Assembly (NCBI RefSeq): GCF_000157915.1
Contig: NZ_EQ973634.1
Location: 23,706 to 87,705 of the forward strand
DNA: 64,000 nucleotides
Direction: 5' to 3'
Source of the DNA: Phocaeicola coprophilus DSM 18228 = JCM 13818
GTDB taxonomy: Bacteria > Bacteroidota > Bacteroidia > Bacteroidales > Bacteroidaceae
Part shown: positions 8,787 through 15,536 of the stretch, piece by piece
How the letters are laid out: each line of letters begins with the position of its first letter
Numbering within the stretch: position 1 is the stretch's first letter
The notes under the pieces: model-generated
Database searches by the model: none
Told to the model about the DNA's origin: nothing
What the model saw: the letters and a program-made list of their open reading frames with translations, nothing else
Made by a program: the position numbers and the translations under genes

Positions 8787-8886
8787 ATATCTATTTGACT
8801 TACTTTATATTCGCTGTGAAGCGAATCTTTCCTCTATGTGATATAGGGGTGCTTATTTTATACAATAAACATTTTTTTGGTTGAGG

Positions 8887-12034: not shown

Positions 12035-12065
12035 TTTGCAGTCAGAAATATTATTCGTAGTTTTG
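12035..12065 (+). promoter_or_regulatory. arsR promoter
   Basis: TTTG (12035-12038), 19 nt, TAGTTTTG (12058-12065). The -7 element lies inside the palindrome at 12054-12069. Confidence 0.7.
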
Positions 12066-12069
12066 CGAA
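12054..12069. promoter_or_regulatory. probable ArsR operator 1
   Basis: TTCGTAGTTTTGCGAA is a palindrome (TTCG..CGAA) covering the arsR -7 element. It is 15/16 identical to the site at 12443-12458 ahead of the next gene, which supports autoregulation by ArsR. Confidence 0.65.
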
Positions 12070-12094: not shown

Positions 12095-12421
12095 ATGATC
12101 CAAAAGAAGTATTCGGAAGAGCAGGAGCGGATGGCCCGCTTTGCCAAGGCAATGGGACATCCGGCGCGCATGGCTATCCTTCAGTTTCTGGCCCGTCAGG
12201 AAAGCTGTTTCTTCGGCGATATCCACGAGGAACTGCCCATAGCCAAGGCTACCGTTTCGCAGCATCTGAAAGAACTGAAGGATGCCGGACTGATTCAGGG
12301 GGAGATTGAAGCTCCGAAAGTGAAATACTGCATCAACAGAGAGAACTGGGAAATCGCCAGACGGATGTTTGCTGATTTCTTCGGTCAGCCTCTCTGCAAG
12401 AAAGAAGGGTGCTGCCGTTAA
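12095..12421 (+). CDS. arsR: ArsR/SmtB-family metalloregulator
   Basis: The 108-residue product has a winged helix-turn-helix ([27 protein letters not shown]). A Cys precedes helix 4 (ESCFFGDI), near the ELCVCDL position of ArsR, and the protein ends CKKEGCCR with three more cysteines, so arsenite could be bound by a mix of these. In ArsR proteins metalloid binding releases DNA. The start at 12095 follows the promoter; the longer frame from 11963 is upstream of it. A terminator directly follows the gene. Confidence 0.93.
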
Positions 12422-12442: not shown

Positions 12443-12458
12443 TTCGTAGTTTGGCGAA
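12443..12458. promoter_or_regulatory. probable ArsR operator 2
   Basis: TTCGTAGTTTGGCGAA differs from operator 1 by one base. It lies 45 nt before the arsF-like start and 11 nt after the arsR terminator, so it probably marks the promoter of the second ars transcript. Confidence 0.65.
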
Positions 12459-12502: not shown

Positions 12503-12910
12503 ATGAAGAATGTATGGTCTTTAGGACTGGTCTGCCTGCTTCTGGTTTCTTGTGGAAGCGGTGGAAAGGAAAAATCCGGATCTGAAGATCGGGTATGTGC
12601 CTGTGCCGGCGGAAGCACTTGCGCGGGAGGAGATGCCTGCAAAGGTCAGGGAACCTGTACCGGCGGAAGTACCTGTTCGGGGCAGGGTGCCTGCAAAGGT
12701 CAGGGAACCTGTGCCGGACAGAATGTAGCAGCCGGTGACTGTGTGGAGGTGCTTTGTTTTCACGGGAAACAGCGCTGTGCCACCTGCATAGCCATTGAGC
12801 GCAATACGCGTGAGGTGCTGGAGAAGGAGTTTGCTTTCGGCAATGCCCGCAAGTCGCCTGATACGTTCAAAGCCGGATTGGTGAAAACGGTCAGCGGAAT
12901 GCTGAAGTAA
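12503..12910 (+). CDS. ArsF-like lipoprotein with Cys repeats and an apparent internal deletion
   Basis: The 135-residue product has a signal peptide and lipobox (LVSCG). Residues about 32-75 carry a cysteine every sixth residue (CAGGST, CKGQGT and similar), encoded by two 54-bp repeats. The rest, VEVLCFHGKQRCATCIAIERNTREVLEKEF, matches the start of the family named nitrophenyl compound nitroreductase subunit ArsF, including the CxxC. The family's last segment follows at once (FGNARKSPDTFKAGL). From memory of relatives, about 50 residues between these are missing in frame. It is the first gene of the second ars transcript. Confidence 0.75.
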   Translation: MKNVWSLGLVCLLLVSCGSGGKEKSGSEDRVCACAGGSTCAGGDACKGQGTCTGGSTCSGQGACKGQGTCAGQNVAAGDCVEVLCFHGKQRCATCIAIERNTREVLEKEFAFGNARKSPDTFKAGLVKTVSGMLK

Positions 12911-12924
12911 GTACGGGGAAGCGT

Positions 12925-13632
12925 ATGGATTGGTTACAGACATGGCTGGACAACAGTTCCACGCCTCTTCTGACTGCGTTTCTGCTGGGCTTGCTTACGG
13001 CTCTTTCTCCCTGTCCGCTGGCCACGAACATTGCAGCGGTGGGGTTTATCGGTAAGGACATTGAGGACCGGCGGAAGATTTTCCGCAACGGTCTGCTCTA
13101 TACGCTGGGACGTATTCTGGCTTACACCCTGCTCGGTGTGGTGCTGATCCTGATCCTGAAAGAGGGATCCAGTATGTTCGGCATCCAGAAGGTGGTTGGT
13201 ACATGGGGTGAACTGGCATTGGGGCCGCTGCTCCTGGTCATCGGACTGTTCATGCTCGTGGGCGACAGACTGAACCTGCCCCAGTTCGGGTTCAGCGGTA
13301 ATGCGGAAGGACTGGCGAAGAGAGGGGGCTGGGGAGCCTTGCTGATAGGGGTTCTGTTTGCCCTGGCTTTCTGTCCCACAAGCGGTGTGTTCTATTTCGG
13401 TATGCTGATCCCTCTGTCGGCTTCCGTGACAGCCGGTTATCTGTTGCCGGCCGTATTTGCCGTAGCCACGGCGATACCGGTGCTTGCCGTTGCCTGGCTA
13501 CTGGCTTTCAGTGTGCAGCAGATGGGCAGTTTCTACGGCAAGATGCAGAAGGTGCAGAAGTGGATGAATCTCCTTGTGGGAGTCGTATTTATTCTCGTCG
13601 GCATCTATTATTGTTGGATAATGTATGTATAA
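12925..13632 (+). CDS. arsG: ArsG-family aromatic arsenical efflux permease (CcdA/DsbD-like)
   Basis: This 235-residue inner-membrane protein has six predicted helices and the paired motifs SPCPLATNI and AFCPTSGVFYFG, the cysteine-proline pattern of DsbD/CcdA-like transporters. I recognise it as the ArsG family, known from the arsEFG system for export of trivalent aromatic arsenicals. It starts 14 nt after the arsF-like gene. An electron-transfer role like CcdA is the alternative, and a small thioredoxin is encoded next to it. Confidence 0.82.
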   Translation: MDWLQTWLDNSSTPLLTAFLLGLLTALSPCPLATNIAAVGFIGKDIEDRRKIFRNGLLYTLGRILAYTLLGVVLILILKEGSSMFGIQKVVGTWGELALGPLLLVIGLFMLVGDRLNLPQFGFSGNAEGLAKRGGWGALLIGVLFALAFCPTSGVFYFGMLIPLSASVTAGYLLPAVFAVATAIPVLAVAWLLAFSVQQMGSFYGKMQKVQKWMNLLVGVVFILVGIYYCWIMYV

Positions 13633-13665: not shown

Positions 13666-13899
13666 ATGGAAATTAAAGTATTGGGACCGGGTTGCAGCAG
13701 ATGCAAGACAACCTATCAGGTGATTGAGAAAGTGATCAGGGAAAACAACCTGGACGTGAAACTGACCAAGGTGGACGATCTGATGGAAATGATGAAGTAT
13801 AACATCATGACCACTCCTGCCGTAGTCGTGGATGAAGTGGTGAAGATGAAAGGACAGGTGCCCACGGAAAGTGACGTAAAGAAACTTCTGGGAATCTGA
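13666..13899 (+). CDS. small thioredoxin-family protein (TIGR00412-like)
   Basis: The 77-residue product is a minimal thioredoxin fold with CSRC (Cys10, Cys13) near the N-terminus and the cis-proline region MTTPAVVVDE. It matches the redox-active disulfide protein 2 family. No signal peptide is seen, so it is cytoplasmic. Placed between arsG and arsP, it probably supplies electrons to arsenical reduction or to the permease; the direct partner is not known. Confidence 0.88.
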   Translation: MEIKVLGPGCSRCKTTYQVIEKVIRENNLDVKLTKVDDLMEMMKYNIMTTPAVVVDEVVKMKGQVPTESDVKKLLGI

Positions 13900-13915: not shown

Positions 13916-14884
13916 ATGATACAAGATTTTGCAGACTGGCTGGTCTATGGGATTTTCGGGCTGAGTGCCGGAACTTCCCTGGGCACGGCTGTGAACTTTT
14001 TCTTCTACGACACGGTCAAGATTCTGATCCTGTTGTTCTTCATCAGTGTACTGATGGGCATTGTCAATGCCTATTTTTCGATCAAACGGTTGCGCAACTA
14101 TCTGGTTACGCACCGGATGTACGGGTTGCAGTATCTGCTGGCGGCTCTGTTCGGAGCCATCACCCCGTTCTGCTCCTGCTCGTCCATTCCGCTGTTCATC
14201 GGGTTTGTGAAAGGAGGGATTCCCCTGGGAGTGACCTTTGCCTTTCTGATCACCTCGCCGCTGGTCAACGAAGTGGCGGTGGCCATGTTCCTCGGATCGT
14301 TCGGACTGAAAGTGACTCTTATCTATGTCGTCAGCGGCATTCTGCTGGGAGTGATCGGCGGTTTCGTGCTGGGACGGATGAGGCTGGCCCCTTATCTCAG
14401 CGACTGGGTGAAACAGATTCAGGCACACTCGTCGGCTCAGGCAGATGAGTGGGAGAAAGATCACACCACCTTTATCCGCCGGCTGCCTGCCATTGTCCGT
14501 GATGCCTGGCGGATTGTCCGCGGCGTACTGGTGTATATCCTGATCGGTATCGGTATCGGAGCCTTCATGCACGGCTTTGTGCCCGAAGGATTTTTTGAGC
14601 AGTACATGTCGAAGGACAACTGGCTGGCCGTTCCCCTGTCGGTTCTCCTGGCCGTACCGATGTATGCCAATGCAGCCGGTATCGTGCCCGTCATCGAGGT
14701 GTTTGTAGCCAAAGGGATTCCGATGGGTACGGCAATCGCCTTTATGATGGCGGTGGTGGGACTGTCACTGCCCGAAGCCACATTGCTCAAGAAGGTGATG
14801 ACCTGGCGTCTTATCGGGATCTTTTTCGGTACGGTAGCCTTTTTCATCATCCTGTCGGGCTATCTGTTCAATTTCATATTATAA
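13916..14884 (+). CDS. arsP: ArsP-type permease (DUF318)
   Basis: The 322-residue protein has about eight to ten membrane helices and the family motif TPFCSCSSIPLFIGF, with ITSPLVNEVAVAMF in the first half and VPMYANAAGIVPVIE in the second. ArsP members export trivalent organoarsenicals such as methylarsenite, and the paired cysteines of the CSC motif bind the metalloid. It starts 16 nt after the thioredoxin gene. A more general permease role is possible, but the ars context supports arsenical export. Confidence 0.85.
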   Translation: MIQDFADWLVYGIFGLSAGTSLGTAVNFFFYDTVKILILLFFISVLMGIVNAYFSIKRLRNYLVTHRMYGLQYLLAALFGAITPFCSCSSIPLFIGFVKGGIPLGVTFAFLITSPLVNEVAVAMFLGSFGLKVTLIYVVSGILLGVIGGFVLGRMRLAPYLSDWVKQIQAHSSAQADEWEKDHTTFIRRLPAIVRDAWRIVRGVLVYILIGIGIGAFMHGFVPEGFFEQYMSKDNWLAVPLSVLLAVPMYANAAGIVPVIEVFVAKGIPMGTAIAFMMAVVGLSLPEATLLKKVMTWRLIGIFFGTVAFFIILSGYLFNFIL

Positions 14885-14907: not shown

Positions 14908-15330
14908 ATGAAAATTTTGATACTTTGCACGGGAAACAGTTGCCGCAGCCAGATGGCTCATGGTTTCCTGCAATCGTTTGACGCCTCGCTGGAGGTGTAT
15001 TCCGGCGGAACGGAACCGGCCGCACAGGTCAATCCCAAGGCCGTGGAAGTGATGAAGGAAGCAGGGATCGACATCAGCAGCCATACTCCGGTCAGTGTCC
15101 GTACCTATCTGGATCAGGCGTGGGATTATGTCATTACCGTGTGCGGAGGAGCCAACGAGAGCTGTCCGGCGTTTACGGGGAAGGTAGGCAAGCGCCTGCA
15201 TATCGGTTTCGATGACCCTTCGCATGCCACAGGAACGCCCGAGTTTATCGAGGCTGAGTTCCGCCGCGTACGCGATGAGATCCATGAGCGTTTCCATAGT
15301 TTTTATCTCTCGGAACTTTGCAGAAAGTAA
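14908..15330 (+). CDS. arsC: arsenate reductase, thioredoxin-coupled LMW-phosphatase type
   Basis: The 140-residue product has the P-loop CTGNSCRS (Cys7, Arg13), the redox cysteines Cys79 and Cys86 (VCGGANESCP) and the acidic loop FDDPSHATG. This is the pI258/B. subtilis type of ArsC, which reduces arsenate to arsenite by a Cys7-Cys79-Cys86 relay and is recycled by thioredoxin. Cytoplasmic. It is the last gene of the ars transcript, followed by a hairpin at 15353-15394. Confidence 0.95.
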   Translation: MKILILCTGNSCRSQMAHGFLQSFDASLEVYSGGTEPAAQVNPKAVEVMKEAGIDISSHTPVSVRTYLDQAWDYVITVCGGANESCPAFTGKVGKRLHIGFDDPSHATGTPEFIEAEFRRVRDEIHERFHSFYLSELCRK

Positions 15331-15404: not shown

Positions 15405-15536
15405 GGCTCTTGCGCGGATCTTATGCTGCCTTTGCGCGGAATTTATGCGGTCAATCGGGCTGGATTATGCCTTCGTTGCGCAGGAATTATGCGGTCAATC
15501 GGGCTGCATCGTGCGGTCGTTGTATCACTGAATAAA
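15405..15536 (+). repeat. degenerate 22-bp tandem repeat array 1
   Basis: Six head-to-tail 22-bp units. The clearest, 15449-15470 and 15493-15514, share GGTCAATCGGGCTG and differ at only three positions; the others keep ATTATGC-like ends. Taken as 44-bp pairs, 15433-15476 and 15477-15520 match at 36 of 44 positions. The remainder of the gap 15331-15693 holds a hairpin and a promoter but no convincing gene. The same unit family occurs inverted at 35856-35943. Confidence 0.7.

Follow-up and report, generated by a model that had tools for sequence, protein, structure and literature searches.

An ArsF lipoprotein of Phocaeicola coprophilus with a broken core and a periodic cysteine array: a possible periplasmic thiol buffer in an arsenic resistance operon

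We analyzed a stretch of 64,000 nucleotides from Phocaeicola coprophilus DSM 18228 (the window), in which an arsenic resistance (ars) operon includes a gene for a small, cysteine-rich lipoprotein. Is this protein an ordinary ArsF with an unusual linker, a metal- or metalloid-binding protein, or the product of a damaged gene? We tentatively favor the view that an ArsF was remodelled to act in the periplasm as a thiol buffer, binding trivalent arsenicals or another soft metal, and we consider it nearly as likely that the gene is damaged. The protein has these parts (coordinates are those of the window):

12503..12910, forward strand: gene for the 135-residue lipoprotein, putatively a remodelled ArsF (an open reading frame with a partial match to NF040494)

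12503..12553, forward strand: signal peptide with the lipid-attachment Cys17 (LVSC, residues 14-17; lipobox identified by eye and by regular expression)

12602..12727, forward strand: seven cysteine hexads, C-x-G-[G/Q]-x-x, residues 34-75 (from the sequence; weak resemblance to BufA2)

The cysteines are at residues 11, 17 (in the lipobox), 32, 34, 40, 46, 52, 58, 64, 70, 80, 85, 92, and 95, which places 12 of them behind the lipid cysteine. The seven from residue 34 to residue 70 have a period of exactly six residues; Cys32 and Cys80 are off-period. This agrees with the original prediction, which described a cysteine at every sixth residue in an ars-operon lipoprotein. Seven cysteines placed at random in 45 residues would form a period-six array with a probability of about 2e-7, but this assumes random placement, and the relevant cause of the array is tandem duplication.

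The lipoprotein gene belongs to an operon with these other features:

12054..12069, forward strand: palindrome TTCGTAGTTTTGCGAA upstream of arsR, a probable ArsR operator that the regulator would bind

12095..12421, forward strand: arsR, metalloregulator (NF033788, 64.2 bits; cut-off 55)

12443..12458, forward strand: palindrome TTCGTAGTTTGGCGAA upstream of the lipoprotein gene, a probable second operator for ArsR binding

12925..13632, forward strand: arsG, DsbD/CcdA-like membrane protein (NF040495, 289.1 bits, cut-off 200; PF13386, DsbD_2)

13666..13899, forward strand: arsE, small thioredoxin-like protein (TIGR00412, 107.8 bits, cut-off 62; PF13192)

13916..14884, forward strand: arsP-type permease (PF03773, 224 bits)

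14908..15330, forward strand: arsC, arsenate reductase of the low-molecular-weight-phosphatase type (TIGR02691, 127.4 bits, which is below the equivalog cut-off of 174.3; PF01451, 73.3 bits)

The lipoprotein gene has the position that arsF has in the arsR-arsF-arsG-arsE-arsP-arsC operon of Phocaeicola plebeius (locus L004), and arsG and arsE lie beside it, which is the operon context expected of arsF. The ArsR of the window is 84-88% identical to the ArsR proteins of four relatives (L003, L004, L005, and L006). The operon's neighboring genes share 83-92% identity with their counterparts in L003 and L004, where the gene order is also the same (arsC has no match in L003). In PMC9144182, ArsE and ArsF are listed among organoarsenical-resistance proteins and ArsG is described as an efflux transporter, with Chen 2019 as the source.

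With up to two mismatches, TTCGTAGTTTNGCGAA matches the window twice (0.06 matches expected), and its loose form, TTCG-N8-CGAA, occurs in the window once more, at 8810. Among eight relative loci, seven have the loose form within 200 bp upstream of arsR, and seven have it 40-56 bp upstream of arsF; in the eighth (L014), it is 551 bp upstream of arsF. The recurrence of this palindrome makes it a candidate ArsR operator in Bacteroidales.

Two other features of this region concern arsC. By eye, the ArsC proteins of three of four relatives appear to end in a short cysteine tail (..ACSCGGGC in L004, ..ACSCGSCN in L006, and ..KCSCGENC in L007); the tail is absent from ArsC of L012 and of the window, which ends in ..SELCRK. 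Just downstream of the window's arsC (15432-15522) is a tandem repeat with a 44-bp unit, present in 2.1 copies with 85% matches. By eye, the first 250 bases past the ArsC match have no such repeat in L004, L006, L007, or L012.

Given this context, is the lipoprotein still an ArsF? It shares a lipoprotein start, the FHGKQRCATC motif, and the C-terminal helices with ArsF (NF040494, "nitrophenyl compound nitroreductase subunit ArsF"). What remains of the core is:

12743..12832, forward strand: start of the ArsF core, with beta1, the RCATC motif, and helix 1 (residues 81-110)

12827..12835, forward strand: deletion junction GAGTTTGCT (Glu-Phe-Ala), at which 53 residues of L003 (71-123) are absent

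12833..12907, forward strand: C-terminal helices of the ArsF core (residues 111-135; from separate tblastn matches and the alignment)

The original prediction included an "ArsF-like core," but this core is broken. NF040494 matches the protein with 42.1 bits (the cut-off is 60) and at profile positions 1-31 of 106 only, while the intact relatives L003 and L004 score 119-120 bits over positions 1-106. With a score below the cut-off and a partly covered profile, the protein is outside the family as modelled, and it differs from ArsF in its missing middle and in its cysteine hexads. In tblastn searches, several relatives matched the window protein in two pieces separated by a gap, and the second piece was its last 28-36 residues (from query residue 100, 101, or 108 to 134 or 135). 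In the alignment, the 53 missing residues lie between LEKEF and AFGNAR, and the frame is kept. A sequence like GA(G/A)TTTGC is present at the ends of the missing piece (at the left end in L018 and at the right end in L003), but not in every relative. Apparently, the in-frame deletion occurred between short direct repeats of this type.

The missing stretch held beta2, alpha2, beta3, and beta4 of a thioredoxin-like domain. For intact L003 (with an alignment of 46 rows), AlphaFold2 predicts a strand-helix-strand-helix-strand-strand-helix fold with a pLDDT of 87 and a pTM of 0.73. When this model was compared to the PDB with Foldseek, the matches listed were mainly thioredoxins (the best, to a malarial protein, had E = 9.5e-5), with modest TM-scores. 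For the window protein, the pLDDT is only 61 and the pTM 0.29, and the predicted core lacks a sheet. By these models, most of the predicted thioredoxin-like fold is lost.

What was retained looks ordinary. R91, C92, and C95 are invariant and T94 is nearly so in 36 ArsF sequences, and the window protein has this RCxTC motif. At 55 retained core sites, its mean identity to 49 outgroups is 0.530, as compared to 0.468-0.579 for 14 intact relatives. By this measure, divergence at the retained sites does not exceed that of intact orthologues, but this would be equally expected if the deletion were very recent.

A recent accident is the main rival to the thiol-buffer reading. A recent in-frame deletion may have destroyed the redox domain of ArsF, while the cysteine-rich linker grew by slippage, so that the protein would have little or no function. 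Deletion between short repeats is a common accident, and the loss of the folded domain and the apparent short repeats at the deletion both fit. Our search of the same genome identified no other ArsF-like copy, beyond a match at 25% identity (E = 0.106). The open frame, the intact neighbors, the palindromes, and the conserved remainder of the core are also what a recent deletion would leave behind. Nevertheless, it is a point against mere damage that the frame, the lipobox, the CATC motif, the palindrome, and the operon are all intact.

Another rival is that the protein still moves electrons. The lipoprotein gene adjoins intact arsG (PF13386) and arsE, as would befit a periplasmic electron relay of the DsbD/CcdA type, but the periplasmic thioredoxin-like arm of such a relay would here be without most of its predicted fold. 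The row of cysteines and CATC could together form an unfolded polythiol that replaces the thioredoxin domain and passes electrons from ArsG to periplasmic targets. ArsG (289 bits) and ArsE (108 bits) would be available as partners, and the CATC motif and the cysteine preceding it are kept. On the other hand, the model no longer has the thioredoxin fold needed for docking to ArsG and for setting the redox potential, and we know of no precedent for an unfolded cysteine array as a redox arm. PMC2963123 does describe ars operons with CcdA, a thioredoxin, and a redox-active disulfide protein. Overall, we view a redox arm as improbable.

Returning to the array that would form the thiol buffer, how did it arise? 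It includes two direct repeats:

12600..12653, forward strand: 54-bp repeat, copy 1, consisting of three 18-bp hexad units

12654..12707, forward strand: 54-bp repeat, copy 2 (81% identity to copy 1)

The original prediction had the coordinates and the size of these two repeats right, and Tandem Repeats Finder (TRF) detects the repeat as well. The copies match at 44 of 54 bases. Because each copy is three 18-bp units, the repeat at the protein level is the hexad. The cysteine array stems partly from a tandem duplication of 54 bp.

We also considered that either the deletion or the number of repeats might be wrong in the assembly, which is a draft (4.04 Mb in 73 contigs). This seems very unlikely, as the deletion is a clean one that preserves the frame, 10 of 54 bases distinguish the two repeat copies, and the gene is more than 36 kb from both contig ends.

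Across the hexads, the cysteine and the glycine at the third position are present in all seven, and the other four positions vary. Such strict periodicity among hexads that otherwise vary argues against mere damage. At the codon level, cysteine is encoded by both TGT and TGC and glycine by all four of its codons. In a star-tree count, 3 changes in cysteine codons were all silent (p = 0.001-0.011), as were 5 changes in glycine codons (p = 0.004). However, hexads 3 and 6 are identical in DNA sequence, so this count overstates the number of independent changes, and the 54-bp duplication makes the codon argument for function weak. Between the two 54-bp copies alone, 4 codon differences are silent and 4 are replacements.

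Base composition is uninformative as to a foreign origin of the array (GC is 0.62 and GC3 is 0.50, versus 0.54 and 0.42 in the core) because a glycine-rich sequence raises the GC content. A copy from elsewhere in the same genome was not apparent either, as the best other DNA match covers just 23 query bases (E = 0.147).

The original prediction held that this linker is not a known part of the ArsF family, and it proposed comparing the repeat among ArsF-like proteins of related genomes. We collected loci from 15 matches in named genomes and from searches that matched 31 of 251 genomes of the family, 20 of 61 of the genus, and 60 of 393 of the order. (Each count includes the genome itself, the searches overlap, and at most 30 matches of each search were taken as loci.) Two members of the genus have ArsF proteins identical to those in records of P. 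plebeius and P. coprocola. The loci gave 76 distinct ArsF-like frames: the window's, 71 with a core of at least 94 residues, and 4 partial frames, truncated by a stop or by the end of a contig (L008, L015, L040, and L085). None of the 75 others, drawn from those matches, has the cysteine array or any run of cysteines of this kind. Because it is absent from these 75 frames, the array is, as far as they show, not a general low-complexity feature linked to the signal peptides of homologues. One relative, L032, has a Met-Cys-Cys-Ser-rich linker that is far from the core; it lacks the array.

We scanned all six frames of 114 sources (the window and the loci; 469,771 bases) for runs of at least 4 cysteines at period six with no cysteine in between. 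Such runs were present only in the window gene (along with four overlapping loci from its own genome) and in an open reading frame of L111. This frame encodes 118 residues on the reverse strand (1468-1824) and has nine cysteines at period six, in CRGSPx hexads; it runs antisense to the part of a 475-residue frame that holds acidic repeats. Its array is probably an antisense by-product of that repeat region. The antisense case implies that an 18-bp tandem repeat alone can yield a cysteine period of six, so the regularity of the array by itself is no proof of function. This adds to the case for a damaged ArsF.

When the array alone was the query against 301 genomes of the family, there was one other weak match (L069, E = 0.009), in frame +1, which is one short region with a pair of cysteines in a long open frame. 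Against 395 Bacteroidota genomes, there were three others: L111 (E = 8.3e-5), L112 (E = 0.0019), and L113 (E = 0.0032). The match in L113 (1507-1605, reverse strand) lies within the span of a reverse frame of 254 residues, but its coordinates put it in another frame. In the genomes we searched, no second strain or species has the array or the deleted variant; both are in one genome only, which counts in favor of a damaged ArsF. In openly accessible papers, we found no description of an ArsF with cysteine repeats, and passages of PMC6205960 and PMC6953987 had nothing further on ArsF.

Other sources were considered for the array. It had no match in collections of phages and plasmids (with BLAST's low-complexity filter on). 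With the whole protein as the query, the plasmid collection contained one match, an ArsF on a Prevotella plasmid, and IMG/VR contained no relative. PHROGs gave one match (E = 0.028), to a family of unknown function. Matches to EGF, DUF7630, or LDL-receptor-like domains were at chance level.

The one family that the array does resemble is the bufferins, which are copper-binding RiPPs whose cysteines are modified by MNIO enzymes (to thiooxazoles). NF050166 (BufA2) is the sole NCBIfam model that matches the array at E ≤ 10, but the match is insignificant (13.5 bits, cut-off 60; E = 0.062). Like BufA2/Buf2 bufferins, the protein is exported, has C-x-G-x-x-x units with cysteines mostly six residues apart, and has some K-G-x-G fillers. 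The seven hexads include the six cysteines in units of this type that BufA2 has, although this is unspecific, as the frame in L111 aligns equally well. In contrast to the six cysteines with a 7-residue break of a bufferin, the window protein has seven uniform hexads, and these are fused to what is left of an ArsF, within an operon for arsenic resistance.

The BufA2 model matches 3 of 296 Bacteroidota genomes, none above the cut-off. Of the three array matches in Bacteroidota, L112 is a BufA2-type bufferin (42.9 bits against the cut-off of 60) that is followed by an MNIO gene (PF05114, 352.6 bits). The bufferin of L070/L112 has a cysteine spacing of 6-6-7-6-6 and aligns to the array with a score of 94-95. 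To assess such scores, we shuffled the filler residues of the window protein 2,000 times while keeping the cysteines in place. The real score was reached in 2 of 2,000 shuffles for L070/L112 and in 9 of 2,000 for the bufferin-like L072. As controls, the antisense frame of L111 gave 0 of 2,000 and the off-frame match of L113 gave 2 of 2,000. (These figures cover L070/L112, L072, L111, and L113; a third match to the BufA2 model, L071, has three stops.) Because L111 and L113 score likewise, the test is unspecific for bufferins and shows just the shared C-x-G hexad; we rejected it as proof of kinship. This outcome makes a thiol buffer, a modified bufferin, and the bolder version below slightly less probable, and a damaged gene more so. 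The resemblance to bufferins is therefore a likeness of the unit and no evidence of descent. L072 itself is an open frame of 222 residues with bufferin-like cysteine units, an irregular break of 11 residues, and further cysteine-rich parts.

Could the array nevertheless be a true bufferin domain that was gained by gene fusion, is modified by an enzyme, and binds copper? Besides the resemblance to BufA2, there are precedents: PMC12452194 reports fusions of MerC and Buf2 and finds sizeable proportions of bufferin precursors away from MNIO genes. However, we detected no MNIO (PF05114) in the genome itself or in 61 genomes of the genus, while the same search was positive in 2 of 14 control genomes. 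Given also the insignificant match, the unspecific shuffles, and the uniform hexads (as opposed to 6-6-7-6-6 in L070), a true bufferin is the least probable reading that we considered. By the membership tests, the window protein qualifies neither as a bufferin nor as a complete ArsF.

Metallothioneins are small cysteine-rich ligands for soft metals, but the window protein differs from them in being an exported lipoprotein with widely and evenly spaced cysteines. A Pfam scan gave no metallothionein match.

Where would a thiol buffer of this type act? According to PMC5080379 and PMC6222051, surface lipoproteins of Bacteroidota carry export signals of the form S(D/E)3, CS(D/E)2, or K(D/E)2. The mature protein begins with CGSGGKEK, and just past the lipid cysteine (residues GSGGK) it has none of these three. 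The original prediction envisaged a surface tail, but because this signal is absent, a surface location is unlikely, and the lipoprotein probably faces the periplasm.

Several observations are consistent with a thiol buffer: the regular array, the open frame, the lipobox, the intact operon with its palindromes, the conservation of the retained core, the constant cysteine and glycine of the hexads, and the bufferin-like unit. PMC12452194 offers precedents, in that lipoproteins are predicted to make up about 16% of Buf2 and that MerC-Buf2 fusions are known from mercury loci. Against it are the presence of the array in one genome only, the insignificant match to BufA2, the lack of an MNIO match in the genome and in 61 genomes of the genus, the antisense frame of L111 (and not a bufferin) as the best other match to the array, the unspecific shuffles, and the weak codon argument. 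Metalloid binding by the array is plausible from the operon.

We propose the following scenario. The ancestor would have been an ordinary ArsF, which is to say a lipid-anchored thioredoxin-like domain, and intact ArsF is plausibly the periplasmic arm of an electron relay that runs from ArsE (in the cytosol) via ArsG (in the membrane). In the lineage of the window, the linker would have expanded to seven C-x-G-[G/Q]-x-x hexads, and the thioredoxin fold would have lost its middle through an in-frame deletion that apparently took place between short direct repeats. (The order of these events is our inference.) The product would be a largely unfolded, lipid-anchored tether that carries 12 cysteines beyond the lipid-attached one. 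In the periplasm, it may bind trivalent arsenicals or other soft metals or metalloids through unmodified thiols, in a role similar to that of a bufferin toward copper. ArsG and ArsE, which are both retained, could keep the tether reduced, if ArsG acts on it, and ArsP could clear the arsenical from the cytosol. A bolder version is an enzyme-free "arsenic bufferin," in which lipid-anchored periplasmic C-x-G-x-x-x thiols are recharged by ArsG/ArsE and which, whether convergent or captured, works without MNIO modification; this we consider unlikely.

If the remodelled protein is functional, then a redox protein would have turned into a metal or metalloid buffer within an otherwise unchanged resistance operon. 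It would also link bufferin-like cysteine arrays to arsenic and offer a test of whether such arrays work without MNIO modification. If it is not functional, then the thioredoxin arm was lost while its partners were conserved, which raises the question of what role ArsG and ArsE have without the arm.
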